NCBI RefSeq assembly: GCF_030812675.1
Contig: NZ_JAUSTE010000001.1
Location: 1 to 64,000, forward strand
DNA from: Sinomonas atrocyanea
Lineage (GTDB): Bacteria; Actinomycetota; Actinomycetes; Actinomycetales; Micrococcaceae
Reading direction: 5' to 3'
Length of the DNA: 64,000 bases
In this document: positions 136-63,597 of the stretch, in pieces
How the letters are laid out: the number at the start of each line of letters is the position of its first letter
How positions within the stretch are numbered: the first letter of the stretch is position 1
Notes under the pieces: generated by a model
Seen by the model: the letters and a program-made list of their open reading frames with translations, nothing else
Told to the model about the DNA's origin: nothing
Database searches by the model: none
Translations under genes and position numbers: made by a program

Positions 136-176
136 ACGACGGCGCCGCTCCCCCGCGCGGGGTGCGGCGCCGTCGT
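136..176. terminator. Terminator-like hairpin (ACGACGGCG-core family)
   Basis: Positions 136-148 are an exact inverted repeat of 164-176, with more C/G pairing inside. There is no downstream T-tract. The arm carries the ACGACGGCG core that recurs in other hairpins at gene ends in this window. Confidence 0.65.
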
Positions 177-246
177 CGTCCGGGATCGTCCCGCAACGTC
201 CACCGGCCGTTAACGCCCGGTTGGCCCGGACCGCACGCGGGCGCGG

Positions 247-252
247 CATGCT
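247..252 (+). promoter_or_regulatory. Candidate -10 (CATGCT) of a leaderless promoter
   Basis: CATGCT ends exactly 6 nt before the ATG at 259. The same hexamer at the same distance precedes zwf. No Shine-Dalgarno sequence is seen before 259. No convincing -35. Confidence 0.35.
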
Positions 253-258
253 CGGCCC

Positions 259-1899
259 ATGACGAACCCCCCAGAGAACTCCCCCGTCACCCGCCGGCGC
301 CTGCTCCTGGGCGCCGGGCTCGCGGCCGCCGCCGGCAGCGTGGCCTTCGCCGCCCCCGCAGACGCGGCCCCCGGACGCCCGGCGTCCAGCAGGGACCTGC
401 CCGGCTCGCTCTCGGCGACGGATCCCACGGCCGTGCCGACGGTCGACGGCCTCCACCTCCAGTTCGGTTCGGATGCCTCGAGCGAGATGGTGGTCTCGTG
501 GCACACGCTCCAGCCGGTGCGGGACGCCCGCGTGGTCCTGGGCGACGGGCATGGCACATTCGCCAAGGCGGTGGCGGCGGAGACCCGGAGCTACGTCGAC
601 GCGAAGTCCGGCCGGACCGTGTACGCGCACCACGCAGTCCTGACCGGCCTGGCCGGACAGACGGGCTACCTCTACGCGGCGGTCCATGACGGAGCGGCGC
701 CGCAGTTCGGCACCTTCACCACCGCGCCCCACGGCCGCGCGCGCGTGACCTTCACGAGCTTCGGCGACCAGGGGACCCCGACGCTCGGCAGGAAGCTGGG
801 CACCGCGTGGGCCAACGACAACCTCGGCTCCCCCGCCGCGGGCGACACGACCGGCGGCGTCGAGCGGGTCCAACCCATGTTCCATCTCTTCAACGGCGAC
901 CTCTGCTATGCGAACCTCGCGACGGACAGGATCCGTTCGTGGTGGGACTTCTGGGCCAACAACTCCCGCAGTGCCCGGAACCGGCCGTGGATGCCCTCGG
1001 CGGGGAACCACGAGAACGAGCTGGGCAACGGCCCCATCGGCTACGCCGCGTACCAGACCTACTTCGAGGTCCCCGAGGCCGCGGGCCAGACCGAGGTGAC
1101 GCGCGGGCTCTGGTACAGCTTCACGGCCGGCGCCGTGCGGGTCATCTCGATCGCGAATGACGACGTGTGCTACCAGGACGGCGGCGACTCGTATGTGCGC
1201 GGCTACTCGGGCGGCGCGCAGAAGGCCTGGCTCGAGAAGGAGCTCTCCGCGGCCCGGTCGAGCCGCGAGATCGACTGGATCGTGGTGTGCATGCACCAGG
1301 TGGCCATCAGCACTGCCAACAACTTCAACGGCGCCGACCTGGGCATCCGCCAGGAGTGGGTGCCGCTGTTCGACAGGTACGGAGTCGACCTCGTGGTGTG
1401 CGGGCATGAGCACCACTACGAGCGCTCGCACCCCATCCGCGGCCACGAGGCGAACCAGACGCTGACCCCGCTGCCTGCCGCGACGGACACGCGGACGATC
1501 GACACGACCCGGGGCACCGTGCACATGATCCTGGGCGGCGGCGGGACGTCCGCGCCGTCCAACCAGCTCCTGTTCACCCCGCCCGAGTGCCGGGTGATCG
1601 TCTCGGTCTCGGACCAGCCGAGCCCGACGACGCATCACCGCGTCCCCGTGTACGTCCACGAGCCGGCGGCATGGTCCGCCGCCCGCGACGCCGCAAACTC
1701 GTACGGCTTCGGCGCCTTCGAGGTCGATCCGGGCAGGCCCGGCGGGGACACCACGATGACCGTCACCTACTACAACGTCACCGGCGTCGGCGGCGGCCTC
1801 GAGGCCTTCGAGACGTTCACGCTGCGCCGCCCGCGCTCCGATTCCGGCCAGCCGTCCGGCCGGCCGGGACAGCAAGGCAAGCAGGGCCAGCAGGGCTGA
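259..1899 (+). CDS. Tat-exported purple acid phosphatase-like metallophosphoesterase
   Basis: Predicted secreted phosphatase of 546 aa. The N-terminus has a twin-arginine signal (TRRRLLLG) followed by an alanine-rich hydrophobic stretch and an ADAAPG-type cleavage region near residue 37. A fibronectin-like purple-acid-phosphatase N-domain (about residues 65-155) is followed by the calcineurin-like domain with the metal-ligand motifs in order: FGDQG, NGDLCY, GNHENE, VCMHQ and GHEHHYE. These are the family's dinuclear metal ligands. The last ~20 residues are a Q/G/S-rich tail. Release of phosphate from organic phosphomonoesters outside the membrane is inferred from the family; the substrate is unknown. 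The gene stands alone between two hairpins, so it is probably monocistronic. No Shine-Dalgarno is visible; a -10-like hexamer 6 nt upstream suggests a leaderless mRNA. Confidence 0.88.
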   Translation: MTNPPENSPVTRRRLLLGAGLAAAAGSVAFAAPADAAPGRPASSRDLPGSLSATDPTAVPTVDGLHLQFGSDASSEMVVSWHTLQPVRDARVVLGDGHGTFAKAVAAETRSYVDAKSGRTVYAHHAVLTGLAGQTGYLYAAVHDGAAPQFGTFTTAPHGRARVTFTSFGDQGTPTLGRKLGTAWANDNLGSPAAGDTTGGVERVQPMFHLFNGDLCYANLATDRIRSWWDFWANNSRSARNRPWMPSAGNHENELGNGPIGYAAYQTYFEVPEAAGQTEVTRGLWYSFTAGAVRVISIANDDVCYQDGGDSYVRGYSGGAQKAWLEKELSAARSSREIDWIVVCMHQVAISTANNFNGADLGIRQEWVPLFDRYGVDLVVCGHEHHYERSHPIRGHEANQTLTPLPAATDTRTIDTTRGTVHMILGGGGTSAPSNQLLFTPPECRVIVSVSDQPSPTTHHRVPVYVHEPAAWSAARDAANSYGFGAFEVDPGRPGGDTTMTVTYYNVTGVGGGLEAFETFTLRRPRSDSGQPSGRPGQQGKQGQQG

Positions 1900-1927
1900 C
1901 GGCCAGGCGGCCGCACGGCCGTTCCAC

Positions 1928-1973
1928 GCACGACGGCGCCGCCCACCTCGTAGGGTGGGCGGCGCCGTCGTGC
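1928..1973. terminator. Bidirectional terminator-like hairpin (ACGACGGCG-core family)
   Basis: A perfect 20-bp stem (1928-1947 with 1954-1973) has a 6-nt loop. It lies between the convergent ends of the phosphatase and gnd genes and has no T-tract. It belongs to the hairpin family sharing the GCACGACGGCG outer arm. Confidence 0.8.
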
Positions 1974-2039
1974 TCCCGGAGGTGACCCCCGGAAGGTGAC
2001 CCCCAGAAGGTGGCTCCTGGATCTGTTGGGCTGGGTGCC

Positions 2040-3479
2040 TCAGTGGGTGTCGACGGCCGAGATCTCGGACCGGTCCTCGCCCCAGAGGGTGTGGAAGGTG
2101 CCCTCGGCGTCCACACGCCGGTACGTGTGCGCTCCGAAGAGGTCGCGCTGGCCCTGGATCACGGCGGCGGGGAGGCGCTTGGCCCGCAGCGCGTCGTAGT
2201 AGGCCAGCGAGGACGAGAAGACCGGGACGGGGATGCCGAGCTGGACGGCCGTGGCCACGACACGCCGCCAGGCCGGGACGGCCTTCCCCACGGACTCCAC
2301 GAAGGCGGGGGCGAAGAGGAGGTTCGCCGGCGCCTGGTCGCCCTTGTAGGCCTCCATGATGACCTTGAGCAGGTCGGCGCGGATGATGCAGCCCGCGCGC
2401 CACAGCGACGCGATCTCGTCCAGCTTGAGGTCCCAGCCGTACTCCTTGGCGGCGCTGGTGAGCATGTCGAGCCCCTGCGCGTAGGAGACGAGCTTCGACG
2501 CGTAGAGCGCCTGGCGGATGTCCTCGACGAAGTCCTCCGGGAGGGCGACCTCGGCCTCGTGCCCGGCGAGGGTCGTCTGGGCGATCTCCCGCTGGGCCGC
2601 CTGCGAGGAGATCCCGCGGGCGAAGACGGACTCGGCGATGCCCGAGACGGGCGATCCGAGGTCGAGCGCCGACTGGACGGTCCAGCGGCCAGTCCCCTTC
2701 TGGCCGGCCGCATCCACGACCACGTCGACGAACGGCTTGCCGGTCTTCGCATCCACGTGCCCGAGCACCTGGGCGGTGATCTCGATGAGGAAGGACGAGA
2801 GCTCGCCCTGGTTCCACTCCTCGAAGATGGCGGCCTGCTCGGCCGGCTCGATGCCGGCGGCACCGCGGAGGAGGCTGTACGCCTCGCCGATGACCTGCAT
2901 GTCGGCGTACTCGATGCCGTTGTGCACCATCTTCACGAAGTGGCCGGCGCCGTCGGTGCCGATCCACGCGCAGCAGGGGGCGCCGTCGTCGGCCTTCGCC
3001 GAGATCTTCTCGAGGAGGGGGCCGAGCGCATCGTAGGACTCCTTGGAGCCCCCGGGCATGATGGAGGGGCCGTTGAGCGCGCCCTCCTCGCCGCCGGAGA
3101 CGCCCACGCCCACGAAGTGGAGTCCCTTCTCGGCGAGGGCGGCCTCCCGGCGCCTCGTGTCCTGGTAGTGGGAGTTGCCGCCGTCGATGACGATGTCCCC
3201 CTCCTCGAGGAGCGGCACGAGCTGGTCGACGACCGCGTCCACGGGAGCACCGGCCTTGACCATGATGAGCACCCGGCGGGGCTTCTCGAGGGCGTCCACG
3301 AGTTCCTGGAGCGTCTCGGTGCGCACGAACTCGCCCTCGTCGCCGTGCTTGGCCAGCAGGGTGTCCGTCTTCTCGACGGACCGGTTGTGCAGCGCGACGG
3401 TGAAGCCGTTGCGGGCGAGGTTGCGGGCGAGGTTGGCGCCCATCACCGCAAGGCCGGTGACGCCGATCTGTGCAGACAT
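2040..3479 (-). CDS. gnd: 6-phosphogluconate dehydrogenase, decarboxylating
   Basis: Catalyses the oxidative decarboxylation of 6-phosphogluconate to ribulose 5-phosphate with production of NADPH (pentose phosphate pathway, cytosol). The protein is 479 aa, normal for the long-chain family. The N-terminal Rossmann fold shows GLAVMGANLARNLA. The substrate and catalytic signature includes GGEEGALNGPSIMPGG and KMVHNGIEYADMQ, with the Lys, Asn and Glu expected at the active site. The long helical C-domain is complete. The start at 3479 is preferred over one 25 codons upstream because a GGAGA sequence lies a few bases before it and homologous proteins begin MxxxIGVxGLAVMG. The window also encodes a glucose-6-phosphate dehydrogenase (zwf) 27 kb away, so the two oxidative steps are not in one operon here. 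Confidence 0.96.
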   Translation of the reverse strand: MSAQIGVTGLAVMGANLARNLARNGFTVALHNRSVEKTDTLLAKHGDEGEFVRTETLQELVDALEKPRRVLIMVKAGAPVDAVVDQLVPLLEEGDIVIDGGNSHYQDTRRREAALAEKGLHFVGVGVSGGEEGALNGPSIMPGGSKESYDALGPLLEKISAKADDGAPCCAWIGTDGAGHFVKMVHNGIEYADMQVIGEAYSLLRGAAGIEPAEQAAIFEEWNQGELSSFLIEITAQVLGHVDAKTGKPFVDVVVDAAGQKGTGRWTVQSALDLGSPVSGIAESVFARGISSQAAQREIAQTTLAGHEAEVALPEDFVEDIRQALYASKLVSYAQGLDMLTSAAKEYGWDLKLDEIASLWRAGCIIRADLLKVIMEAYKGDQAPANLLFAPAFVESVGKAVPAWRRVVATAVQLGIPVPVFSSSLAYYDALRAKRLPAAVIQGQRDLFGAHTYRRVDAEGTFHTLWGEDRSEISAVDTH

Positions 3480-3701
3480 GTACTCTCCGTCTCTTCGTGG
3501 GGTCTCAAGGACCAAGGCTAGTTGAGGCACGGGATCCTGACTTCCGTTTGACATCGTATTTCGGTGCGCCTCACTTTTGGCAAGCGATTGCCAGTCCGTG
3601 CCAGCCGGACGATCGCCAGACGGCTGCCAGGCGCAGGCCAGCGTGCCGGCCCGGGGGCGGCGGCGGGACGCCGCACCGGGAGAGCTTTCTGCTCATCTGT
3701 T

Positions 3702-3730
3702 TTGAATTCGCCGGGGATTGGTCCTATATT
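3702..3730 (+). promoter_or_regulatory. Sigma-70-type promoter, TTGAAT-17-TATATT
   Basis: TTGAAT (3702-3707) and TATATT (3725-3730) are separated by exactly 17 nt. This is one of the closest matches to the housekeeping consensus in the window, yet no plus-strand protein gene follows. Expected start of transcription is about 3736-3739. Confidence 0.65.
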
Positions 3731-3736
3731 CGTCTG

Positions 3737-3785: not shown

Positions 3786-3868
3786 GTTCCATGCCCGGAC
3801 GTCCTTTGCGGAGTGCCGAGGTCTGGAGGCAGGGGACCCTCAGGGCGTCGGTTGCGGCGCGGGGACGA

Positions 3869-3887: not shown

Positions 3888-3912
3888 GAATGAAGATGGG
3901 TCGAATGAGGGT

Positions 3913-8208: not shown

Positions 8209-8253
8209 CCCGCAGCGCTCCCGGCGCGCTTCGGCCGCCTGCAGGCGACCACC

Positions 8254-8299
8254 GCACGACGGCGGCCCTCCCCACTCCCGGGGAGGGCCGCCGTCGTGC
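8254..8299. terminator. Terminator-like hairpin after aceE (ACGACGGCG-core family)
   Basis: A perfect 20-bp stem (8254-8273 with 8280-8299) with a 6-nt loop starts 45 nt after the aceE stop. The outer arm GCACGACGGCG is the same as in the hairpin at 1928-1973. No T-tract. Confidence 0.8.
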
Positions 8300-8360
8300 G
8301 TGACCGGTGCCGTGGAGGCGCGCCCGGGCCGCTCCTGCCTGTGGCACCGGGCACGGGCCC

Positions 8361-12109: not shown

Positions 12110-12208
12110 GGGCCTCGCGCCCCGGCGGCCGGCGCACCGCGCCGGCCGCCTCCTGTTGACGAGGCCAGAGCACTCTGGCCTCCTCCTGCACCACGAAAGT
12201 AGCGAAGC

Positions 12209-13467: not shown

Positions 13468-13511
13468 CGAACAGGGAGGGGCCAGTCGTGAGACTGGCCC
13501 CTCCCTGTTCG
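13468..13511. terminator. Bidirectional hairpin terminator fabF / DUF3145
   Basis: A perfect 20-bp stem (13468-13487 with 13492-13511) with a GTGA loop lies between convergent genes. Its sequence is not of the ACGACGGCG family. Confidence 0.85.
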
Positions 13512-20436: not shown

Positions 20437-21116
20437 TGGGTGTCCTTCGTTGTCGGGGAGGCGGTGAACCCGCCCAATCTATCAAGTGGCCACAGGATCG
20501 CCACCGGTCGGCCGATCACCTTGTCCGCCCGGACGAGGCCGCCCCCGGGGGCGCCCAGCAGCGCTCGGGAATCGGCGGACTCCGAGCGGTGGTCGCCCAG
20601 CAGCCACAGCCGCCCGGCCGGCACGATGACGTCGAACCGCTGCTCGCTGGGCGCGTCGCCCGGGAACAGGTACGGCTCGTCGAGGGGCTGGCCGTTCACC
20701 TCGATTTTCCCACCGGCGGTGCAGCAGCGGACGTGGTCGCCGCCCACGCCGATGACCCGCTTGACGTACACGGTCTCGGTGGGCACGACGCCGAGCCACT
20801 CGGCCGCCCCCTGGAGGACGTCCCCCGCCCACCCGCGCCCCGAGGTGAGGGGTGCGAAGGAGCCCCTGCCGTCGAACACGACCACGTCTCCGCGGCGGAT
20901 CGGCGCCGGGTCGACCCCCGCACGGACGACGCCGATCCGGTCGCCCGGCTCGAGCAGCGGCTGCATGGACGCGGAGGGGATGTAGAAGACGTCGACGACG
21001 AACGAGCGGATGACCGCCCACACGACGAAGGCCAGCACGACGGCCAGAACGACCGAACGCCAGCCCCTCAGCCGGGACTGGCGTTCGGATCGTGCCATGG
21101 AGGTGGCGTTCAGCAC
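20433..21116 (-). CDS. lepB: Signal peptidase I, copy 2
   Basis: A second type I signal peptidase, 227 aa. One transmembrane helix (residues ~20-42) is followed by FYIPSASMQPLLEPGD (catalytic Ser), VKRVIGVGGDHV (catalytic Lys) and GDHRSESADSR. The box-E Asn of the first copy is replaced by His. It shares a CC dipeptide (HVRCC here, HVVCC in copy 1) after the box-D region, suggesting a disulfide or a lineage-specific feature. The start is uncertain: GTG 21116 or ATG 21098; neither has a clear Shine-Dalgarno. It lies 18 nt after rplS. Confidence 0.9.
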   Translation of the reverse strand: MLNATSMARSERQSRLRGWRSVVLAVVLAFVVWAVIRSFVVDVFYIPSASMQPLLEPGDRIGVVRAGVDPAPIRRGDVVVFDGRGSFAPLTSGRGWAGDVLQGAAEWLGVVPTETVYVKRVIGVGGDHVRCCTAGGKIEVNGQPLDEPYLFPGDAPSEQRFDVIVPAGRLWLLGDHRSESADSRALLGAPGGGLVRADKVIGRPVAILWPLDRLGGFTASPTTKDTQ

Positions 21117-26790: not shown

Positions 26791-26798
26791 CCAAGGCG

Positions 26799-28651
<1,853 letters not shown>

Positions 28652-28767: not shown

Positions 28768-28868
28768 GTCGACTGGGGGACAGCGCCGGCGGGCGCGATC
28801 AGGGCCAGGCGCTGCTGGGCGACCTCGCGCACCCACGGGGCGACCTCGCGCGGGGCGGACGACGGCGG

Positions 28869-28899
28869 AAGGGGCGCCTCCCAGAGGGAGGCGCCCCTT
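28869..28899. terminator. Bidirectional terminator thiC / ffh (ACGACGGCG-core family)
   Basis: A perfect 14-bp stem (28869-28882 with 28886-28899) with a 3-nt loop is flanked by an outer stem carrying GACGACGGCG on the left and CGTCGTGC on the right, with a bulge. Confidence 0.75.
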
Positions 28900-28956
28900 C
28901 GGCGTCGTGCGCGAACGGTCCTGCGGCTCGCCCGGACGGGCCCCGCCGGCTCAGAG

Positions 28957-32105: not shown

Positions 32106-32133
32106 CCCGTGGCGGGGCGAGCCCACGGAGGAG

Positions 32134-32177
32134 CCGGACGGACGACGGCGGGCGGGCGCCCGCCGTCGTCCGTCCGG
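32134..32177. terminator. Bidirectional terminator zwf / glnB (ACGACGGCG-core family)
   Basis: Perfect inverted repeat: 32134-32150 pairs with 32161-32177, and the inner GGCG/CGCC extends it to 21 bp with a 2-nt loop. Lies between convergent zwf and the first glnB. Carries the GGACGACGGCG arm. Confidence 0.85.
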
Positions 32178-32192
32178 CCCGCGTCTCTGAGG

Positions 32193-32531
32193 TCAGATCG
32201 CGGAGTCGCCGCGTTCGCCCGTGCGCACCCGGACAGCGTCCTGCACCTCGACGACCCAGACCTTGCCGTCGCCCTGCGAGCCGGTCGAGGCCGCGACGAC
32301 GATCGTCTCGAGGATCTCGTCGGCGTGCTTGTCGGTGGCGAGCACCTCCACCCTCACCTTGGGGATGAGGTCCACGCTGTACTCGGCGCCCCGGTACACC
32401 TGGACGTAGCCGCGCTGGCGGCCGTAGCCGCTCGCGGCGCTGACGGTCAGTCCCTGGACTCCCTCGGCCTCGAGGTGCTCGCGGATGGAATCGAGCTTCT
32501 CGGGCCGGACGATGGCGGTGATGAGCTTCAC
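32193..32531 (-). CDS. glnB: Nitrogen regulatory protein P-II, copy 1
   Basis: 112-aa PII signal protein of the GlnK/GlnB family. Binds ATP/ADP and 2-oxoglutarate and blocks the ammonium transporter when nitrogen is sufficient. T-loop residue Tyr51 (in YRGAEYSVD), the nucleotidylation site in actinobacteria, is present. The KLITAIVRPEKLDSIRE and GDGKVWV segments are typical. The GTG start overlaps the stop of the transporter gene (GTGA), so the two are co-translated. Confidence 0.94.
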   Translation of the reverse strand: MKLITAIVRPEKLDSIREHLEAEGVQGLTVSAASGYGRQRGYVQVYRGAEYSVDLIPKVRVEVLATDKHADEILETIVVAASTGSQGDGKVWVVEVQDAVRVRTGERGDSAI

Positions 32532-33958
32532 GAGCCCACAGTACCGGCCGGCGAGGCCCCGGCCAGAACCTCCTCGCGCTGGGCGTGCGCGCCGTCCGCG
32601 GGCCGCTGGCCGAGGCGGCGCTCGAGGTGCTGCTCGAGCAGGGTCTCCACGGTGTGCCGGACGCCGAGCGGGTGGAACCCGCCGCCCGTGGTGGCGGACG
32701 GCGACGAGTAGGCGGTCTCGGCGTGGATGACGAGGTCGACGCCGGTCTCCTCGACGTCCTTCGCGACGCGGAAGCCCATGACGGCCTTGATCGCGAGGCC
32801 GAGCGCGAGGGCCACGCCGAACGAGTAGCCGAGCACGGCGCCGGCGCCGAGGGCCTGGGTGCCCAGCAGGGCGAGCCCGCCGCCGTAGAGCAGGCCGCGG
32901 CCGGGCACCGGGGCGGCGGGGTCGGCGGCGAGGCCGATGAAGAGCGTCCCGACGAGGCCGCCGACGAGGTGCACGCCGACCACGTCGAGCGAGTCGTCGA
33001 AGCCGAGGCGGTACTTCAGGCCCACGGCCAGCGCGCAGACGGCGCCGGCGAGGAGGCCGAGGACGATCGCCCAGACCGGGTCGATGGTGGCGCAGGAGGG
33101 CGTGATCGCCACGAGCCCGGCAACGGCACCGGACGCGGCGCCGAACGAGGTCGCGTGCCCGTCGCGGACCTTCTCGACGACCAGCCAGGACAGGATCGCG
33201 GCGCACGGGGCCACGAGCGTGTTGATCCATGCGAAGCCGGCCTCGCCGTTGGCAGCGAGCGCGGAGCCGGCGTTGAAGCCGAACCACCCGAACCAGAGCA
33301 GGCCGCAGCCGAGCATGACGAGCGGAAGGTTGTGGGGGCGGTGCTCGGGGTCCTTGCCGAAGCCGACGCGCTTGCCGAGGACGAGGGCCAGCGCGAGGCC
33401 TGCGGCGCCTGCGAGGACCTCGACCGCGGTGCCGCCGGCGAAGTCGATGAGGCCGAGGTGGTTGAGCCAGCCGCCGATGAACGTCCCGTGCGCGTCCTTC
33501 TTCGAGTCGAACACCCAGTGCGCCACGGGGAAGTACACGAGCACGGCGAAGGCGCCGGCGAAGACCATCCAGGACCCGAATTTGGCGCGGTCCGCGATGG
33601 CGCCGGAGACCAGGGCCACGGTCACGGTGGCGAAGACCCCCTGGAAGCCCACGAACACGATCTCCGGGATCGTGCCGACGAGGGGCATCGAGCCGCCCGT
33701 GGCGAGCAGGTTGTGGAGGCCGAAGTCCTCGAAGGGGTTGCCGAACAGGCCGTCCCCCGCGTCCGTGCCGAACGCGATGGAGTAGCCGAAGAGGACCCAC
33801 AGGACGCCGACCAGGGCGAGGGCCCCGAAGCTCATCATCATCATGTTGAGCATCGACTTCACGCGGGTCATGCCCCCGTAGAAGATGGCGAGGCCGGGTG
33901 ACATGAGGAGGACGAGGGCTGCCGAGACGAGGACCCAGGCGGTGTCGCCAGCGTTCAT
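32528..33958 (-). CDS. amt: Ammonium transporter, copy 1 (first pore His replaced by Glu)
   Basis: Eleven-helix ammonium channel/transporter of the Amt/Mep/Rh family, 476 aa. Family segments DTAWVLVSAALVLLM, SPGLAIFYGGM and DFAGGTAVE are present. The central pore twin-His pair is changed: the first His is Glu180 (AVEVLAG) and the second remains as His330 (VGVHLVGG). The adjacent copy 2 keeps both. A Glu at the first position occurs in yeast Mep1/Mep3, so transport is expected to be kept but altered. ATG 33958 has AAAGG 8 nt upstream. A four-box GlnR-like array lies ~150 nt upstream. Operon with glnB. Confidence 0.94.
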   Translation of the reverse strand: MNAGDTAWVLVSAALVLLMSPGLAIFYGGMTRVKSMLNMMMMSFGALALVGVLWVLFGYSIAFGTDAGDGLFGNPFEDFGLHNLLATGGSMPLVGTIPEIVFVGFQGVFATVTVALVSGAIADRAKFGSWMVFAGAFAVLVYFPVAHWVFDSKKDAHGTFIGGWLNHLGLIDFAGGTAVEVLAGAAGLALALVLGKRVGFGKDPEHRPHNLPLVMLGCGLLWFGWFGFNAGSALAANGEAGFAWINTLVAPCAAILSWLVVEKVRDGHATSFGAASGAVAGLVAITPSCATIDPVWAIVLGLLAGAVCALAVGLKYRLGFDDSLDVVGVHLVGGLVGTLFIGLAADPAAPVPGRGLLYGGGLALLGTQALGAGAVLGYSFGVALALGLAIKAVMGFRVAKDVEETGVDLVIHAETAYSSPSATTGGGFHPLGVRHTVETLLEQHLERRLGQRPADGAHAQREEVLAGASPAGTVGS

Positions 33959-34109
33959 GGGTGAGGCCTTTCGAGGGACGTTCACGGATCTCGGCCCCCG
34001 TCCGCCGTCCCCGGCGACGGTCTGCGGGACCACCTGAACCAGAATCCCGTGGCGGTGTTACCGGTCCGCTCCGTCCGTGTTGCCCTCGTGTTACAGGAAT
34101 CCCCCCGGG

Positions 34110-34147
34110 GTTAAGCGTTCGTCACGGCCGTGTTAACGGGGTGTTTC
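34110..34147 (-). promoter_or_regulatory. GlnR-like box array upstream of amt copy 1
   Basis: On the minus strand four pentamers are spaced by exactly 6 nt: GAAAC-n6-TTAAC-n6-GTGAC-n6-TTAAC. This is the 11-bp periodic a-site/b-site layout (gTnAC / GaAAC) of actinobacterial GlnR. A TGTAAC hexamer 20 nt downstream would place the array at about -27 to -64, an activator position. Direct demonstration is lacking. Confidence 0.75.
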
Positions 34148-34227
34148 GTGGCCCGCTCCGTCGCCCCCGTGCCGCCCCCTTTCCGCGCCCTGCGCCGGCC
34201 TCCCGGTGTCAGCCCGGTCGCCGACGC

Positions 34228-34266
34228 GGGCGGACGACGGCGGGTGGTCCCCGCCGTCGTCCGCCC
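34228..34266 (-). terminator. Terminator after glnB copy 2 (ACGACGGCG-core family)
   Basis: A perfect 17-bp stem (34228-34244 with 34250-34266) with a 5-nt loop begins 19 nt after the stop of the second glnB. Confidence 0.85.
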
Positions 34267-34285
34267 TCCGCGGCGCTTGGTGCGC

Positions 34286-34624
34286 CTAGATCGCCGCTGC
34301 CCCGCGCTCCCCCGTCCGGACGCGGATCGCCTCGTGCACGTCCACGGTCCACACCTTGCCGTCCCCCGCGCGGCCGGTGTTGGAGGTGGTGATGAGCACA
34401 TCGAGGATGTCGTCCGTCTGGTCGTCGGTGGCGAGCACCTCGATCCTCACCTTCGGGACGAGGTCCACGCTGTACTCGGCGCCGCGGTACACCTCGGTGT
34501 ACCCGCGCTGGCGGCCGTAGCCGCTCGCCGCGCTGACGGTGAGCCCCTGGACCCCGTAGGCCTCGAGGCCCTCGCGGATGGAATCGAGCTTCTCCGGGCG
34601 GACGATCGCGGTGATGAGCTTCAC
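34286..34624 (-). CDS. glnB: Nitrogen regulatory protein P-II, copy 2
   Basis: 112-aa PII protein, highly similar to copy 1 (both begin VKLITAIVRPEKLDSIRE and end VRTGERG-A-AI). Tyr51 of the T-loop is present. The main differences are in the region after the T-loop (residues 60-90), the part that contacts the partner transporter or nucleotide. The GTG start overlaps the stop of the amt gene (GTGA). No glnD (adenylyl/uridylyl-transferase) follows, unlike the common amt-glnK-glnD order. Confidence 0.94.
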   Translation of the reverse strand: MKLITAIVRPEKLDSIREGLEAYGVQGLTVSAASGYGRQRGYTEVYRGAEYSVDLVPKVRIEVLATDDQTDDILDVLITTSNTGRAGDGKVWTVDVHEAIRVRTGERGAAAI

Positions 34625-36012
34625 GCCTGGACCTTCTTCCGTGCCGCCTCGGTGAGCAGGTCGTCCGCGTTGAACGCCGCGACCTCGGCCTCGTTCTTCG
34701 CCCCGAGCGGGTGGAACGCCGCCCCGGACGAGCCGCCCATGCTGTTGCCGGAGTATGCCGTCTCGGCGTGCAGGGCGATGTCCACGCCCGCTTCCTCGGC
34801 CTCGCTCGAGACCCGGAAGCCCATGGTCTTGCTGATGATCCAGCCAATGGCCAGGGAGAGGGCGAACGAGTACACGAGGACTGTGCCGGCGCCGAGGGCC
34901 TGCTTGCCCAGGAGCTCGAAGCCGCCGCCGTAGAACAGGCCGTGGCCGCCGGAGGGGGCGCCCGGGTTGGCCGCGAGCCCGATGAACAGGGTGCCGATGA
35001 TGCCGCCGACGAGGTGGACGCCCACCACATCGAGCGAGTCGTCGTAGCCGAAGCGGTACTTCAGGCCCACGGCGAGGGCGCAGGCCGCGCCGGCGAGGAG
35101 GCCGAGGACGATCGCCCACAGGGGCGAGACCGCGGCGCAGGCCGGGGTGATGGCCACGAGCCCGGCCACGGCGCCCGAGGCGGCGCCGAGCGAGGTCGCA
35201 TGGCCGTCGCGCAGCTTCTCCACCACGAGCCAGCCGAGGACCGCGGCGCACGGCGCGACGAGCGTGTTGATCCACGCGAACGCGGCCACGCCGTTGGCGC
35301 CCAGGGCCGAGCCCGCGTTGAAGCCGAACCAGCCGAACCAGAGCAGGCCCGCGCCTAGCATGACGAACGGCAGGTTGTGGGGGCGGTGGTTGGGGTCCTT
35401 GCCGAAGCCGTTGCGGCGGCCGAGGATGAGCGCGAGGGCCAGGCCCGCGGCGCCGGCGTTGATGTGGACGGCCGTGCCGCCGGCGAAGTCGATCACGCCG
35501 AGGCCGTTGAGCCAGCCGCCGATGAAGGTGCCGTTCGCGTCCTTGTTCGCGTCGAACACCCAGTGCGCGACCGGGAAGTAGACGAGGATCGAGAAGAAGA
35601 ACGCGAAGACCATCCAGGCGCCGAACTTGGCCCGGTCCGCGATGGAGCCCGAGATGAGCGCGACCGTGATGATCGCGAACACGCCCTGGAAGCCCACGAA
35701 GGCGAGCTCGGGGATGGTGCCGGCCAGGGCCGTGCCGTCGCCCGTGGCGAGGATGCCGTGGAGGGCGAACTTGTCCAGGTTGCCGACGAGGCCGCCGAAC
35801 CAGTCGGTGCCGAAGGACATAGAGTAGCCGACGAGGATCCAGAGCACGCCCACGAGGGCGATGGCGCCGAAGCTCATCATCATCATGTTCAGGACCGACT
35901 TGGCGCGCGTCATGCCGCCGTAGAAGAACGCGAGCCCGGGCGTCATGAGCAGCACGAGCGCTGCCGAGGCGAGCACCCAGGCGGTGTCTCCCGCGCTGAG
36001 GGTGGGGGTCAT
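34621..36012 (-). CDS. amt: Ammonium transporter, copy 2 (canonical twin His)
   Basis: 463-aa Amt family transporter, tandem paralogue of the gene at 32528-33958. Both pore histidines are kept: His183 (AVHINAG) and the VGVHLVGG His. The cytosolic tail differs from copy 1 (SSGAAFHPLGAKNE). ATG 36012 has AAAGG 7 nt upstream, the same arrangement as copy 1. A GlnR-like array lies about 145 nt upstream and the module ends in its own terminator, so the two amt-glnB modules are separate transcription units. Confidence 0.95.
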   Translation of the reverse strand: MTPTLSAGDTAWVLASAALVLLMTPGLAFFYGGMTRAKSVLNMMMMSFGAIALVGVLWILVGYSMSFGTDWFGGLVGNLDKFALHGILATGDGTALAGTIPELAFVGFQGVFAIITVALISGSIADRAKFGAWMVFAFFFSILVYFPVAHWVFDANKDANGTFIGGWLNGLGVIDFAGGTAVHINAGAAGLALALILGRRNGFGKDPNHRPHNLPFVMLGAGLLWFGWFGFNAGSALGANGVAAFAWINTLVAPCAAVLGWLVVEKLRDGHATSLGAASGAVAGLVAITPACAAVSPLWAIVLGLLAGAACALAVGLKYRFGYDDSLDVVGVHLVGGIIGTLFIGLAANPGAPSGGHGLFYGGGFELLGKQALGAGTVLVYSFALSLAIGWIISKTMGFRVSSEAEEAGVDIALHAETAYSGNSMGGSSGAAFHPLGAKNEAEVAAFNADDLLTEAARKKVQA

Positions 36013-37534: not shown

Positions 37535-37568
37535 GGCTGCCCTGCCGCCTGCCTTCCCGCCCGACGCG

Positions 37569-37607
37569 CGACGGCGCCCGCCCCCGGGAAGGAGGCGGGC
37601 GCCGTCG
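37569..37607. terminator. Bidirectional terminator MFS / ftsY (ACGACGGCG-core family)
   Basis: A perfect 14-bp stem (37569-37582 with 37594-37607) has an 11-nt loop. The arm carries CGACGGCG. It lies between convergent genes. Confidence 0.75.
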
Positions 37608-37634
37608 TGTATCCGCTGCACCTGCCTGTCCGCT

Positions 37635-42761: not shown

Positions 42762-43715
42762 CTACCAGCGGGCGTTGCGCGGAACCGGCTGGCAGCGCGT
42801 GCAGCGGTAGGAGGAGCGGTTCATGAACGGTTCCCGGACGATCACGCCGCTCTCCCCCGCCGCCGCGCACCGCCGGCACGCGCGCCCGGCCCGGCCGTAG
42901 GCGTCCAGCGAGCGGGAGAAGTAGCCCGAGGCCCCGTTGACGTTGACGTAGAGCGAGTCGAAGCTGGTGCCGCCGGCCACGAGGGCCCGGCCCATGACGT
43001 CCCGGACGGCGTGCACGAGCCGGTCCGTCTCGGGCCGGCGGAGCGTGTCGGTCGGCCGGGCGTAGTGCAGGCGCGCGCTCCAGAGGGCCTCGTCGGCGTA
43101 GATGTTCCCGATCCCGGACACGAGGCGTTGGTCCAGGAGGGCCCGCTTGATGCCCGTGCGCCGCGCCCGCAGGCGCCGGTGGAACGCCTCGGGGTCGAAC
43201 AGCGGATCGAGCGGGTCGCGCCCGATGTGCGCGGCCTCCCCCGGGATGAGCGCGAGGTCGGAGCCGCCGCGGCCGCCGGGCCCGCCGTCGTGCGTCGCCA
43301 CGAGGGGCACCACGGCGAGGCCGCCGAAGATCCGCTGGTCCACGAAGCGCAGCTCACGGGGCATGCCGGGGACGTCGCTGAGGGTGAGCCGGACCTTGAG
43401 GTGCTTCTCGTCGGGCGCGTCGGGCTCCTCGACGAGCAGCTGGCCGCTCATGCCCAGGTGCGCGAGGAGGGCGGTGTGCGGCGCCGTGCCGGAGTCCGGC
43501 GCGGCGGGGTCCGACAGCGGGAGCCAGAGGTACTTGCCGCGACGGACGGCGTCGACCACCCGGGCTCCCTCGAGCTGGCCGCGGAAGTCCTCGGCGCCGA
43601 GCGCGTGGCGCCGCACCGAGCGGGCGTCCACCACGTCCACCGCCCCGACGGTCCGCCCCGCCACCCAGGAGGCGAGGCCGCGGCGCACCACCTCGACTTC
43701 GGGCAGTTCGGGCAT
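42762..43715 (-). CDS. mutM: Formamidopyrimidine-DNA glycosylase
   Basis: Bifunctional DNA glycosylase/AP lyase that removes 8-oxoguanine and formamidopyrimidines. 317 aa. The catalytic N-terminus [13 protein letters not shown] gives the Pro nucleophile and Glu. The conserved beta-lysine is in RRGKYLWL. The helix-two-turn-helix motif is followed by the zinc finger CRRC...CTRC near the C-terminus. An insertion with Gly/Arg residues ([11 protein letters not shown]) precedes the C-domain. 6 nt after rnc. Confidence 0.95.
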
Positions 43716-59289: not shown

Positions 59290-59303
59290 GGCTGGGTCCT
59301 TCC

Positions 59304-60794
59304 TTAGGCTGCCGCGCCGGCGGCGGTGTCCGCGGGGACGGGGTCGAGGTCCGACGGCGACGAGAGGGTCCCGCGGACCGCCGTGGCCGCCGCGACGACG
59401 GGCGAGACGAGGTGGGTGCGGCCGCCCTTGCCCTGACGGCCCTCGAAGTTGCGGTTCGAGGTGGACGCGCACCGCTCCCCCGGCTGGAGCTGGTCCGGGT
59501 TCATGCCCAGGCACATCGAGCAGCCGGCGAAGCGCCACTCGGCTCCGAACTCGGTGAAGACCTTGTCCAGGCCCTCGGCCTCGGCTTCGAGGCGCACCCG
59601 TGCCGAGCCGGGGACCACCATCATCCGCACGTTCGGGTCCTTGGTGCGGCCCCGGACGATGTCCGCGGCTGCGCGCAGGTCCTCGAGGCGCGAGTTCGTG
59701 CAGGAGCCGAGGAAGACGGTGTCGACGCGGATGTCCTTCATGGGCGTGCCCGCGGCGAGGCCCATGTAGTCGAGGGCGCGGCGGGCGTTGGCCTTGGCGT
59801 TCTCGTCCGCCATCTGGTCCGGGTCGGGGACGGACTGCGAGAGGGACACGCCCTGGCCGGGGTTGGTGCCCCAGGTGACGAACGGCTCGAGCTCGTCGGC
59901 GTCGAGGAAGACCTCGGCGTCGAACACGGCGTCGTCGTCGGTGCGGAGGGTGTCCCAGTACTCGACCGCCGCGTCCCAGTCTGCGCCCTGCGGGGCGTGG
60001 GGACGGCCCTTCATGAAGGCGTAGGTGGTCTCGTCCGGGGCAACCATCCCGGCGCGCGCGCCGGCCTCGATCGACATGTTGCAAATCGTCATGCGGGCTT
60101 CCATGGACAGGGCCCGGATGGCCGACCCCCGGTACTCGAGGACGTACCCCTGGCCCCCGCCGGTGCCGATCTTGGCGATGACGGCGAGGATGATGTCCTT
60201 GCTGCTCACGCCCGGCTTGAGCGTGCCCTCCACGGTGATGGCCATCGTCTTGAACGGCTTCAGCGGCAGCGTCTGGGTCGCCATGACATGCTCGACCTCG
60301 GAGGTGCCGATGCCCATGGCGAGGGCGCCGAACGCGCCGTGGGTGGACGTGTGCGAGTCGCCGCAGACGATCGTCAGGCCCGGCTGGGTGAGCCCGAGCT
60401 GGGGCCCGACGACGTGCACGATGCCCTGCTCCCTGTCGCCGAGCGAGTGCAGGCGCACCCCGAACTCGGCGCAGTTGGCCCGCAGCGTCTCGATCTGGGT
60501 GCGGCTGGTCGGGTCCGCGATCGGCTTGTCGATGTCGATCGTGGGGGTGTTGTGGTCCTCGGTCGCGATCGTCAGGTCCGGGCGGCGGAGCCGCCGGCCA
60601 GCGAGGCGGAGGCCCTCGAACGCCTGCGGGGAGGTGACCTCGTGCACGAGGTGGAGGTCGATGTAGAGCAGATCGGGCTGCCCGTCCTCGCCCCTGCGCA
60701 CCACGTGCGCGTCCCAGACCTTCTCGGCCAGTGTGCGTCCCACGGCCTGCTCCCTCCGCCTCGTGCCAGTGCTGATCGTGCCGGTGGTGGTCAT
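59304..60794 (-). CDS. leuC: 3-isopropylmalate dehydratase, large subunit
   Basis: 496-aa aconitase-family subunit with a [4Fe-4S] cluster. Cluster cysteines are in [13 protein letters not shown] and [11 protein letters not shown]. Other landmarks are EDHNTPT and [12 protein letters not shown]. The start follows AGGA closely. Divergent from an IclR-type regulator; the 144-nt intergenic region contains overlapping inverted repeats next to the regulator's start. Other leu genes are not in the window. Confidence 0.95.
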
Positions 60795-60908
60795 CCGGTC
60801 CTGATCGTCGAGTGCCGATCAGGCCGGCGCCCGCCCGGCCAGCCTTCTGGCTGCCTTGTATCCAGTGGACCAGCGAGTCGGCCGCGCTGGCCACCCCGCC
60901 GACTTGCA

Positions 60909-60933
60909 TCTCAGATATTGAGACGCCAATATC
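60909..60933. promoter_or_regulatory. Overlapping inverted repeats in the leuC / IclR gap
   Basis: TCTCA-n5-TGAGA (60909-60923) and GATATTG-n6-CAATATC (60914-60933) are two perfect inverted repeats sharing bases. They cover the -10-like CAATAT of the regulator gene (60927-60932) and end 6 nt before its ATG. This is the expected site for autoregulation by the IclR-type protein and for control of leuCD. Confidence 0.65.
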
Positions 60934-60938
60934 AACCT

Positions 60939-61658
60939 ATGGACAATACTAGTGGCGTCGGCGTGATCGACAAGGCCGCCCTCGTACTCGATGCGCTGGA
61001 GGCGGGCCCCACGACGCTCGCCCAGCTGGTGGCTGCCACGGGCCTGGCCCGTCCCACGGTCCACCGCCTCGCCCTCGCGCTCGTGCACCACCGCCTCGTG
61101 GCCCGGGACATGCAGGGCCGGTTCGTCCTCGGGTCCCGCCTCGTCGAGCTCGCCTCCGCAGCCGGGGAAGACCGGCTCATCGCGGCCGCCGGCCCCATCC
61201 TCATGCAGCTGCGCGACGCGACCGGGGAGAGCGCCCAGATCTTCCGCCGCCAGGGCGACTGGCGCGTGTGCGTGGCGTCCGCGGAGCGTCCCGTGGGGCT
61301 GCGCGACACGATCCCCGTGGGCACGCAGCTGAGCATGAAGGCAGGCTCCGCGGCCCAGATCCTCGTTGCCTGGGAGGACCACGACCGGCTCCTCGAGGGG
61401 CTTCACAACGCCCGGTTCACCCCCACCGTGCTCGCCGGCGTCCGACGCCGGGGCTGGGCCCAGTCGCTCGGCGAACGCGAGCCGGGGGTCGCCTCGGTCT
61501 CCGCCCCTGTGCGTGGGCCCTCGGGCCGGGTGATCGCCGCGGTGTCCATCTCCGGCCCGATCGAGCGCTTGACCCGCCAGCCGGGCCGCCAGCATGCTGA
61601 GGTCATCTGCAACGCCGGACGGCTGCTGACCGAAGCCCTGCGCAAGGGCAACGACTAG
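60939..61658 (+). CDS. IclR-family regulator of leuCD (NdgR/LtbR-like)
   Basis: 239-aa regulator with an N-terminal winged HTH (residues ~8-60: AALVLDALEAGPTTLAQLV...GLARPTVHRLA) and an IclR effector domain (SAQIFRRQGDWRVCVAS, LSMKAGSAAQILVAW, GVASVSAPVRG). The divergent position opposite leuCD is that of NdgR in Streptomyces and LtbR in Corynebacterium, regulators of leucine and related amino-acid genes. The ATG lacks a Shine-Dalgarno and follows CAATAT by 6 nt, so the mRNA is probably leaderless. Confidence 0.88.
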   Translation: MDNTSGVGVIDKAALVLDALEAGPTTLAQLVAATGLARPTVHRLALALVHHRLVARDMQGRFVLGSRLVELASAAGEDRLIAAAGPILMQLRDATGESAQIFRRQGDWRVCVASAERPVGLRDTIPVGTQLSMKAGSAAQILVAWEDHDRLLEGLHNARFTPTVLAGVRRRGWAQSLGEREPGVASVSAPVRGPSGRVIAAVSISGPIERLTRQPGRQHAEVICNAGRLLTEALRKGND

Positions 61659-61696
61659 CCGGTCCGGCTCCAGCCACTGAAGCGGGCGGAGGTCCT

Positions 61697-62245
61697 GTGG
61701 CCGAATTCGCAGTGTTCCTGCGCGGCGTGAACGTCGGCGGCATCACCATCAGGATGGCCGCGCTGCGCGAGGCCCTCGGCGCGCTGCCCGTGAGCGGCGT
61801 GAAGACGCTGCTGGCGAGCGGGAACGCCGTGTTGTCCACCGACCTCGAGGGAGCCACCCTCAAGGCGCGCGTCGAGGAGGCCCTGCGGGCCTCGTTCGGG
61901 TACGACGCGTGGGTGGTCGTGCTCCCGCGCCAGGCCGTCGAGGCCCTCGTGCGCTCGTGCCCGTACCCGCCGGACGACCCCCAGGTCCATGCGTACGTGA
62001 CACTGTCTTCGGATCCCGCGGCGCTCGACCGGCTCGTGGCCCTCCTGGAGGGGGACGGATCCGAGGGGGCCCAGGACGACGGCGCCCACGTCCGGCTCAG
62101 CCCCGTGGCCCTCGCGTGGCGCTGCCCCAAGGGTGCGACCCTGGATGCGCCGCTGTCGAAGGCGACGGCCAAGCCGGTCTTCAAGGCCACCACGACGACG
62201 CGGAACCTCCGCACCCTCGAGAAGGTCCGGGCCGCCTTCGGCTGA
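61697..62245 (+). CDS. DUF1697 family protein
   Basis: 182-aa protein of the DUF1697 family, function unknown. Begins AEFAVFLRGVNVGG, the family's hallmark, with LLASGNAVLST and the C-terminal TTTTRNLRTLEKV segment. GGAGG lies 4 nt before the GTG at 61697. Found 38 nt after the IclR regulator gene and may be co-transcribed. Followed by a hairpin terminator. Confidence 0.88.
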   Translation: MAEFAVFLRGVNVGGITIRMAALREALGALPVSGVKTLLASGNAVLSTDLEGATLKARVEEALRASFGYDAWVVVLPRQAVEALVRSCPYPPDDPQVHAYVTLSSDPAALDRLVALLEGDGSEGAQDDGAHVRLSPVALAWRCPKGATLDAPLSKATAKPVFKATTTTRNLRTLEKVRAAFG

Positions 62246-62282
62246 TGCCCGCGGCAGCGGAACGCGGAGGACAGATGCGGAA

Positions 62283-62308
62283 AGGGCCCGGTCCGAAGAC
62301 CGGGCCCT
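62283..62308. terminator. Terminator DUF1697 / tRNA cluster
   Basis: A perfect 11-bp stem (62283-62293 with 62298-62308) has a CGAA loop. It lies between the plus-strand DUF1697 gene and the minus-strand tRNA cluster. Confidence 0.85.
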
Positions 62309-62316
62309 CCATGAGG

Positions 62317-62389
62317 TGACCCCAGCGGGATTCGAACCCGCGTTACCGCCGTGAGAGGGCGGCGTACTAGGCCGCTATACGATGGGGCC
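62317..62389 (-). tRNA. tRNA-Glu (anticodon CTC), copy 1
   Basis: A 73-nt cloverleaf on the minus strand with acceptor GGCCCCA paired to TGGGGTC, anticodon loop CCTCTCA (CTC), and GGTTCGAATCC T-arm. Identical to the second copy 160 nt away. The CCA end is not encoded. Confidence 0.97.
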
Positions 62390-62476
62390 TCGCACTGCAC
62401 ACGCCGACGAAGCGCGCGCTCCGGCCATCCGGAACGGATGGCTCTGTTCGAAGGACGGCTGCTGCCGGTCCTTCAG

Positions 62477-62549
62477 TGACCCCAGCGGGATTCGAACCCG
62501 CGTTACCGCCGTGAGAGGGCGGCGTACTAGGCCGCTATACGATGGGGCC
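62477..62549 (-). tRNA. tRNA-Glu (anticodon CTC), copy 2
   Basis: Same 73-nt sequence as the copy at 62317-62389, including the T-arm and anticodon loop. The intervening 87 nt are not duplicated. A TAAAGT hexamer lies 6 nt upstream. Confidence 0.97.
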
Positions 62550-62615
62550 GTGGTACTTTACCGTGCTCAGAAGTGAGCGATCCTTCTGCACTGCCCGAGG
62601 GCAGAACATCCGGAG

Positions 62616-62687
62616 CTGGGATACCAGGACTCGAACCTAGAATGACGGTACCAGAAACCGTAGTGTTGCCAATTACACCATATCCCA
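62616..62687 (-). tRNA. tRNA-Gln (anticodon CTG)
   Basis: A 72-nt cloverleaf on the minus strand: acceptor TGGGATA paired with TATCCCA, anticodon stem ACGGT/ACCGT with loop TTCTGGT (CTG), T-arm AGGTTCGAGTCCT. The unusual T1-A72 start is typical of bacterial tRNA-Gln. Probably the first tRNA of a Gln-Glu-Glu transcript. Confidence 0.97.
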
Positions 62688-62754
62688 CCGCACTGTCCGG
62701 GCCGTGCCCACCGGATCTCTCCGCTGCGCTCCGTGCCCCTCAGCACGAGTAATT

Positions 62755-62783
62755 ACTTTACCCGAAGCTCCCGTGCGCCACAA
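62755..62783 (-). promoter_or_regulatory. Promoter of the tRNA cluster, TTGTGG-17-TAAAGT
   Basis: On the minus strand TTGTGG (62778-62783) and TAAAGT (62755-62760) are exactly 17 nt apart, 60-70 nt upstream of tRNA-Gln. Confidence 0.6.
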
Positions 62784-62822
62784 ATCGGCGCCCCGGCCGC
62801 TTCCGGGCGCTCCCCCGGCGGG

Positions 62823-63533
62823 TCAGGCGAGGCCGAGGAGCGCCGGGATCTGCTCGAGTCCGGTGACCTGATCGGGCACGGAGGGGGCCACGGCGGCGTC
62901 CAGGACGGCGGACCGCCGGTTGAGCCAGATGCCCCGCAGGCCCGCCCCGGCGGCGCCGATCACGTCGTGCGCGGGGTTGTCGCCGATGTACACGGTCTCG
63001 TGGGCCGCGGTCCCCAGCTGGCGCAGGCCCTCGTGGAAGATCGCGGGATCCGGCTTGGCCGCCCCCACGGCGTCGATCCCCACGAGGATGCCGATGCGCT
63101 GGAGCCCGGCCGTGTCGAGCTTGGCGCGCTGGTAGTCGTGGACGTTGTTGCTCACGGCCCCGTAGGCGATCCCGGCAGCGTCGAGCGCGTCCAGGAGCGG
63201 CACGACGTCGTCGAACGCGCGGACATAGGTGGGCTGGGCCGCCTCGTACGCCGCGAGCCACCCCGCCGATTCGGCATCCGAGGCGAAGGCCCGCCCGAAG
63301 TGCGCGAGGCAGCGCTCGGCCCGCAGCACACGCTGCTGCGCGAACGTGATCTCACGCGCCACGTACCGCTCGTAGATGTCGTCCGAACCGCGGGTGAAGA
63401 TCCGGCAGAACGTGGTCCACTCCGCCTCGTCGAGGCCCGGCAGCAGGCGGGCACTCACCTCGCGCAGCGCGCGGTCCATGGCGCCCTCGAGGTCCACGAG
63501 CGTCTCGTCGATGTCGAGCAGGACCCCCTTCAC
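62823..63533 (-). CDS. HAD-superfamily hydrolase
   Basis: 236-aa phosphatase-like HAD protein. Motif I is LLDIDETLVD (DxD), followed by a helical cap (residues ~20-105), motif II GAVSNN, Lys in GAAKPDP and motif IV YIGDNPAHDV. Substrate unknown. The frame is open up to GTG 63638, which would overlap the gltX stop, but that start would place a perfect 17-bp hairpin inside the coding region. I therefore use GTG 63533 as the most likely start. Confidence 0.82.
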   Translation of the reverse strand: MKGVLLDIDETLVDLEGAMDRALREVSARLLPGLDEAEWTTFCRIFTRGSDDIYERYVAREITFAQQRVLRAERCLAHFGRAFASDAESAGWLAAYEAAQPTYVRAFDDVVPLLDALDAAGIAYGAVSNNVHDYQRAKLDTAGLQRIGILVGIDAVGAAKPDPAIFHEGLRQLGTAAHETVYIGDNPAHDVIGAAGAGLRGIWLNRRSAVLDAAVAPSVPDQVTGLEQIPALLGLA

Positions 63534-63559
63534 GAGCGCGGCGCGGTCCGCCGGGAGGC

Positions 63560-63597
63560 GACGCACGACGGCGGGTGCGGACCCGCCGTCGTGCGTC
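63560..63597 (-). terminator. Terminator after gltX (ACGACGGCG-core family)
   Basis: A perfect 17-bp stem (63560-63576 with 63581-63597) with a GCGG loop lies 34 nt after the gltX stop. Carries the GCACGACGGCG arm of the family. Confidence 0.75.

Follow-up and report, generated by a model that had tools for sequence, protein, structure and literature searches.

Why should terminator-like hairpins at the ends of eight unrelated genes be built on one and the same arm? The question is raised by the 64 kb window studied here (the whole stretch of DNA analysed, from the start of contig NZ_JAUSTE010000001.1), in which an original prediction had picked out the eight hairpins and had considered a preferred terminator arm, a binding site for a termination or RNA-decay factor, a dispersed repeat and an uptake-type sequence. 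The answer that we tentatively favour, while holding it to be somewhat short of probable, is that the hairpins are terminators without a U-tract, built from a lineage-specific DNA word that acts as an uptake-type label.

The word at issue is the 9-mer ACGACGGCG, which has 32 matches in the window compared to 3.60 on average and at most 10 in dinucleotide shuffles, none of 100 shuffles reaching 32. Strong hairpins were found to fold at all eight predicted sites, with the word near the stem base. As had been claimed, both arms carry it: six hairpins hold exact copies, the hairpin at 37569 sets GCGACGGCG opposite CGCCGTCGT, giving a G-T end pair that is a wobble in RNA, and the one at 28859 has an exact left arm and one mismatch in the right arm. 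The last of these, correctly labelled an outer stem at 28869-28899, is the weakest member of the eight. Their placement at gene 3' ends was also confirmed, since seven lie downstream of called genes or convergent between them. Because window base 1 is also the first base of the contig, whatever gene precedes the hairpin at 136 is outside the readable DNA; this hairpin was placed by its ortholog in the relative G013, which starts 15 nt 3' of a cysE-like gene that itself follows a cysK-like gene (both names read from translations, without a profile run). At 63560 the gene call overlaps the start of the neighbouring HAD-family open reading frame, the HAD profile match of which starts at residue 29, past the hairpin. 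Genes in the window were called with a GC-frame heuristic and named with NCBIfam, and labels of coding and intergenic DNA are therefore approximate, above all near 67-70% GC; the named genes beside the hairpins are gnd, aceE, thiC, ffh, two glnB-amtB pairs, ftsY, the gltX end and zwf. No T-tract follows any of the eight hairpins, as predicted, and the word is absent from the window terminators at 13468 and 62283, which had been singled out for lacking it, and likewise from those at 12124, 21053 and 23251.

The counts in the whole genome and in relatives that had been proposed as a check revealed that the word is specifically paired. The genome (G000; 4,120,037 bases, 4.12 Mb) holds 70 inverted pairs of ACGACGGCG whose members stand 1-30 apart; the reversed pattern, taken as a control, occurs 0 times. 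In 864 kb of G000, convergent gaps (19.8 kb) held 16 intergenic paired 9-mers, co-directional gaps (55.4 kb) held 34 and divergent gaps (24.8 kb) none, and 28 of the 34 co-directional copies sit 16-80 nt past the stop codon. In G002, 7.9 kb of convergent, 47.3 kb of co-directional and 10.8 kb of divergent gaps held 9, 8 and 1. From the distribution over gap types and the distance to the stop codon, we infer that the shared-word hairpins act as transcription terminators. Stable GC hairpins that come soon after the stop codon and, in the G000 sample, never lie in divergent gaps have the traits of I-shaped terminators, and the lack of a T-tract fits the highly structured, U-lacking 3' ends of Streptomyces. 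According to the passages available from term-seq work in that genus, very stable GC hairpins with few or no U follow the stop codon and are used in both directions (PMC12207403, PMC8269248); the hairpins described here are alike in being stable, GC-rich, U-poor and placed 3' of the stop, with predicted use in both directions. A common stem word is not reported in those passages, whereas here CGACGGCG occupies an arm of 24 of the 87 strong intergenic hairpins (at least 13 bp) in the 864 kb of G000, 5 of 43 in G002 and 0 of 31 in G031, a distribution that goes beyond chance.

We found that the arm extends beyond the 9-mer. Among 97 paired copies in G000, 86 have R at -4, 66 have C at -3, 78 have G at -2 and 92 have either C or G at -1, so that the arm word is about RCG(C/G)ACGACGGCG. 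Its core is not set by pairing alone, in agreement with what had been proposed: 3' of the second glnB copy, all 11 genomes sampled keep GACGACGGCGG in the arm, even as the letters of the outer stem are mostly not the same from one genome to the next, with pairing preserved where an outer stem exists. After aceE, 8 of the 9 detected orthologous hairpins hold the word, a count in which the G002 hairpin was missed by the finder yet is visible and the G011 piece ended before aceE. After ffh, only 1 of 8 is exact, the rest having ACGACGCCG, a mixed form or no word. The spacing between arms is highly variable. Terminators lacking the word likewise keep their sequence between species, and conservation of orthologous hairpins was for this reason dropped as proof of special selection; orthologs of the non-arm hairpin at window position 21053, for instance, have CGCCAGTCCC in common in 7 of the 9 genus genomes where they were found, with a variant in G005 and G009.

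The inverted pair is nearly restricted to one family, probably the Micrococcaceae, since for one gene the best hits with a name were in Arthrobacter species. It was found in all 14 genus relatives (32-131 copies) and, patchily, in 16 of 21 other genomes of the family (1-73 copies, with at least 17 in seven of them). Other genomes of the order hold it in 14 of 22 cases (1-17 copies, the 17 being in G042), and among 396 genomes drawn from across the phylum, those outside the family, genomes of 9 Mb included, have at most 4 pairs.

Sister groups within this range spell the word differently. The 12-mer CGCACGACGGCG occurs 246-663 times per genome in all nine genomes of group A (G000, G002, G003, G004, G008, G011, G012, G013 and G014) compared to 43-92 times in all six of group B (G001, G005, G006, G007, G009 and G010). 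Conversely, GGACGACGGCGG occurs 177-420 times in all six group B genomes and 53-130 times in eight of the nine group A genomes, the exception being G011 with 253. The counts of the two words are thus reciprocal in the sister groups, as expected of lineage dialects, with G011 rich in both. Relative to the mean of its 36 one-mismatch neighbours, CGCACGACGGCG is elevated 8.9- to 16.5-fold in group A, 2.0- to 3.7-fold in group B and 0.9- to 3.0-fold in four outgroups, and exact copies amount to 0.25-0.46 of the one-mismatch copies in group A and 0.055-0.10 in group B. Copies are shared evenly between the strands (335 forward and 328 reverse in G002), so that CGCACGACGGCG shows the strong over-representation on both strands that is looked for in an uptake sequence; classic uptake sequences are far more strongly over-represented than CGCACGACGGCG is here.

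The same division was seen in paired copies and in copies without a mate. With CGCCGTC within 30 nt, there are 59-185 copies of CGCACGACGGCG in group A and 3-11 in group B, and 17-55 copies of GGACGACGGCGG in group A and 22-81 in group B. Without such a mate, CGCACGACGGCG numbers 180-478 in group A and 37-84 in group B, and GGACGACGGCGG 36-94 in group A (198 in G011) and 155-339 in group B; these mate-less counts are totals minus paired copies and are approximate, in that nearby duplicate arms are counted twice and imperfect mates count as none. In an FtsY tree, group B forms one side of a branch with support 87/99, while group A is unresolved as a clade, G004 and G011 standing at an open fork. 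We read the counts of the two groups together with this branch as a change of dialect. GC content was disfavoured as the cause of the split, because the group A loci of G003 and G012 (68%) and group B G001 (68.7%) are similar in GC and very different in counts. In addition, at the G031 loci L254-L263 and L222-L223, CGACGACGGCG is the top gene 11-mer and the pair is nearly absent, which may represent a third dialect or codon autocorrelation.

Unpaired copies are also in excess in group A genomes, strongly so in G002 and slightly in G000. Under a stricter test, in which an unpaired copy has no mate (up to one mismatch) within 60 nt, 37 of 53 sampled CGCACGACGGCG copies in G002 were unpaired, 25 in called genes and 12 outside, and 20 of 55 were unpaired in G000. 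Of the 25 in-gene copies in G002, 19 lie more than 60 nt from the end of the called gene, and a few of the 37 fall into other stems of their context. The excess in genes was measured against 200 synonymous shuffles in a symmetrical test, in which real and shuffled genes were treated alike. Unpaired 12-mers numbered 16 compared to 2.35 expected in G002 (6.8-fold) and 13 compared to 3.72 in G000 (3.5-fold), and none of the 200 shuffles reached the count; pooled loci of other group A genomes gave 4 versus 0.69, group B loci 1 versus 0.55 (60 kb only) and G031 0 versus 0.20. In the first test of coding sequences (CDS), the 12-mer had ranked 1 of 2104, and the test was rerun on fresh DNA, now including one further genome and one control; the earlier CDS tests gave 13 versus 2.1 and 12 versus 2.6 in two G000 samples and 19 versus 3.6 in G002. 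When hairpins were masked in G002 genes, GCACGACGGCG came first of 2710 11-mers (36 versus 6.6) and CGCACGACGGCG first of 393 12-mers (23 versus 4.0). The left-hand R of unpaired copies counts little, since shuffles already give about 72-78% R in genes.

Short words with this combination of traits are known from bacteria that take up DNA selectively. The DNA uptake sequences (DUS) of Neisseriaceae, as the available passages describe them, are words of 10-12 bp with inverted pairs at terminators, single copies in genes and dialects that match phylogeny (PMC3630211, PMC2397512). The present word is alike in its shortness, its inverted pairs at putative terminators (70 pairs, with the sampled intergenic pairs of G000 at 3' ends only), its single in-gene copies, the agreement of its dialects with phylogeny and, possibly, a scarcity in acquired DNA; it differs in a lower density, a weaker coding excess and a GC-rich, probably actinobacterial host. 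A likeness is also offered by the uptake signal sequences (USS) of Pasteurellaceae: where two copies face each other at a gene end, according to the excerpts available, the RNA can fold into a hairpin that serves as a terminator (PMC7811141). The word and the phylum are different there, and far fewer copies were found here. Repetitive extragenic palindromes (REP) and bacterial interspersed mosaic elements (BIME) resemble the hairpins in being intergenic, palindromic and present in many copies. In REP and BIME repeats the whole unit is conserved. Here the arm word is common, while the inner stem, loop and outer stem vary, and a REP-type repeat was disfavoured on this ground, though some copies share inner themes. 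No known structured RNA family was recognised, as no Rfam model matched the hairpins; the window matches at gathering score were four transfer RNAs and one thiamine pyrophosphate (TPP) riboswitch. No earlier report of terminator hairpins with a shared word appeared among the matches listed for the word itself, uptake sequences, competence and actinobacterial terminators, and none of the papers searched joins transformation of Actinobacteria to an over-represented word, the uptake papers listed being on Neisseriaceae and Pasteurellaceae.

Acquired DNA and the uptake machinery were considered next to these likenesses. Meningococcal uptake sequences are scarce in acquired DNA, as far as the passages of PMC2397512 go. 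In G002, a 60 kb region (three adjacent 20 kb pieces from dnaA) has 0 12-mers compared to about 8 expected from the other 400 kb; this one region includes a TIR protein and transposases from several insertion sequence (IS) families. Its stretch at about 14-40 kb of G002:C1 (L105-L106), near dnaA, is IS-rich, with ISL3, IS110 and Mutator-type transposases, an rve integrase and a TIR-domain protein. The window itself has DprA and a ComM-type gene, together with a XerC-like recombinase. ComEC matches occur in 57 of 58 genomes and TadE in 58 of 58, 57 of them above the cut-off; the competence machinery is thus present without being discriminating, and its near universality in relatives allows the uptake idea without supporting it. 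Micrococcus luteus, a family member by inference, is described in the accessible part of PMC4322843 as being transformed via Flp/Tad pili and ComEC.

Based on its occurrence on both strands, terminator pairs, single copies, dialects, possible scarcity in one island and accompanying competence genes, the word would appear to match uptake sequences better than the other known kinds considered. In the mechanism that we propose, the hairpins would be bidirectional, U-tract-less (I-shaped) transcription terminators or 3'-end stabilisers, and the arm would be shared because each hairpin consists of two inverted copies of one lineage-specific word. Inverted copies at gene ends would fold in RNA and end or protect transcripts in both directions. 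The word itself would most likely be a DNA-level label, kept because DNA that bears it is preferentially taken up and recombined, and its inverted pairs may have been co-opted as terminator stems. Uptake, rather than another DNA or RNA reader, would then maintain the word. A bolder form, which we regard as rather doubtful, would have a Gram-positive phylum use RCG(C/G)ACGACGGCG as a functional uptake sequence; CGCACGACGGCG, GGACGACGGCGG and perhaps, in G031, CGACGACGGCG would be its dialects, a putative pilin or com protein of a Tad-type machine its reader, and the arm of terminators its second role. The uptake option of the original prediction, there marked as speculation and still conjectural, gained ground from the dialects, the unpaired copies and the word-free 60 kb with IS-rich DNA, and the unpaired excess in this genome is small.

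Several results weigh against a label for uptake. The 20 of 55 unpaired copies in G000 scale to about 95 per genome, little above the group B totals, and unpaired intergenic 9-mers in G000 are spread evenly over gap types at 0.20-0.27 per kb, as background would be. A harsher masked CDS test gave 5 versus 1.83 in G000, 6 versus 0.93 in G002 and 54 versus 58.8 for the bare 9-mer in G000, with a mask that was biased, covering real sites and leaving shuffled ones, and that was replaced by the symmetrical test. In G000 genes the 11-mer GCACGACGGCG is only 2.3-fold over shuffles. GCACGACGCCG also exceeds synonymous shuffles (2.8-fold in G000, 4.1-fold in G002). The leading 11-mer in the CDS of G031, a genome holding 3 pairs, is CGACGACGGCG (28 versus 4.15), indicating that part of the gene excess is general codon context. 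For GGACGACGGCGG, outgroup counts of 118 (G042), 111 (G022) and 104 (G030) put group A near background, and that background is not low and the counts come without a one-mismatch-neighbour control. The word-free region of G002 has company, 3 of the 20 other 20 kb pieces also lacking the 12-mer; ComEC and TadE occur in genomes without the word as well; and the term 'uptake sequence' is absent from the main text of the two M. luteus transformation papers searched. The 12-mer density, one per 6.6 kb in G002 to 16.7 kb in G000, is about 6- to 15-fold below that of meningococci, for which the passages of PMC2397512 give about 1.15 kb between uptake sequences.

The terminator traits on their own would be accounted for if the word were read in RNA or at RNA polymerase, either as a preferred base for U-less terminators or as the site of a termination or decay factor, with dialects as drift of that factor; we consider this possible, if on the doubtful side. 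The confinement of intergenic paired copies to 3' ends at terminator-like distances from the stop agrees with such a reader (0 of 50 such copies in the G000 sample lie in divergent gaps), as do the constancy of the core in all 11 glnB copy 2 arms, set against an outer stem that mostly changes but stays paired, and the common use of strong-stemmed, U-lacking ends in high-GC Streptomyces, as far as the passages of PMC12207403 and PMC8269248 go. That the pair is clearly the enriched unit in G000 also speaks for an RNA reader. Such a reader gives, however, no reason for the excess of unpaired copies in group A, nor for the 19 in-gene G002 copies far from gene ends, and 63 of the 87 strong intergenic hairpins of G000 do without the word. 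The preferred-arm option of the original prediction accordingly stands as to terminator position, and a plain preferred arm leaves the group-specific flanking letters and the extra partnerless copies unexplained. A binding site for a putative nucleoid, regulatory or recombination protein that prefers gene ends would suit the equal use of strands and the word consensus of 12-13 bp; the highly variable arm spacing makes a fixed dimer site unlikely, and we judge this reading quite improbable.

Neutral or selfish spread is an unlikely explanation. Terminators would have been seeded by copying or gene conversion, leaving the arm as a relic, and unpaired copies would be decayed hairpins on a background of codon context. 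Some unrelated hairpins do have common inner themes, such as GGGTG or GGCCCTCCCC, a paralogous aceE elsewhere in G000 is followed by a similar arm, conservation between species is not special to arm-bearing terminators, and part of the CDS excess is general. Yet in many cases the arm is exact and the inner stems and loops bear no apparent relation, outer stems change without loss of pairing, and reciprocal dialects that include unpaired copies are not predicted; the dispersed mobile repeat that had been among the original options was disfavoured by this wide variation of inner stems and loops and by the mostly changing, still paired, outer stem letters. Chance composition was ruled out by the shuffles, the reversed control and the relatives. 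That the word is no special feature, being a common 8-9-mer of a GC-rich coding genome that enters stems by composition, is accordingly a reading to which we give hardly any credence: genes of G000, G002 and G031 do contain more ACGACGGCG than their synonymous shuffles, and G042, of the order and outside the family, has its 17 pairs, but the reversed control has none, the strong intergenic hairpins of G031 lack the word though its genes favour it, and even the large genomes of the phylum sample stay at or below 4 pairs outside the family.

The positions of the hairpins and of other word occurrences are collected in Table 1. The two adjacent glnB-amtB pairs (P-II and ammonium transporter) at window 32193-36012 have the same orientation, and an arm-word hairpin follows each. 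The second aceE copy (86% identical), on G000:C2 near 211372 (L234 near 11372), is followed by ACGACGGCGGCCCTCCC, which resembles the first-copy hairpin with an imperfect mate. The TPP riboswitch lies at window 26794-26901, directly upstream of thiC. Outside the window, G000 has clusters of GGGACATGACCCCTCAAC in 2-3 copies, mostly at 21-bp spacing and reminiscent of iterons or mobile-element ends; this tandem repeat was set aside among the over-represented words as separate from the arm word.

Table 1. Hairpins with the arm word and other word occurrences (window positions unless a locus of G000 is given).
Feature	Position	Strand	Remarks
Hairpin	136-176		ACGACGGCG in both arms; G013 ortholog 15 nt after cysE-like gene
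Hairpin, convergent g259/gnd	1928-1973		arm word GCACGACGGCG in both arms
Hairpin after aceE	8253-8300		arm word CGCACGACGGCG in both arms
Hairpin, convergent thiC/ffh	28859-28908		left-arm copy exact, right-arm copy off by one letter; outer stem
Hairpin, convergent zwf/glnB copy 1	32133-32178		arm word GGACGACGGCGGG
Hairpin after glnB copy 2	34228-34266		arm word GGACGACGGCGGG; core kept in 11/11 genomes
Hairpin, convergent MFS (major facilitator superfamily) gene/ftsY	37568-37608		one arm starts with G (G-T end pair)
Hairpin after gltX	63560-63597		arm word CGCACGACGGCG in both arms
Single unpaired CGCACGACGGCG copy	43283-43294	-	inside gene 42762-43715
GGGACATGACCCCTCAAC clusters	L097:3066-3125, L097:4188-4247, L099:12535-12594, L101:19280-19339	both orientations	from over-represented-word scan

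Many gene-end hairpins here are made of two mirrored copies of a word that sister species spell slightly differently, much as in bacteria that mark their own DNA for uptake, a role that the word may have here too. If the word is not an uptake word, it would still be a lineage-specific, sequence-constrained terminator arm that points to a reader at the level of RNA or the polymerase. If it is a true uptake word, self-DNA labelling would have evolved anew in bacteria with another kind of envelope and a Tad-type machine, and its two dialects would offer a ready test of species barriers to gene exchange.

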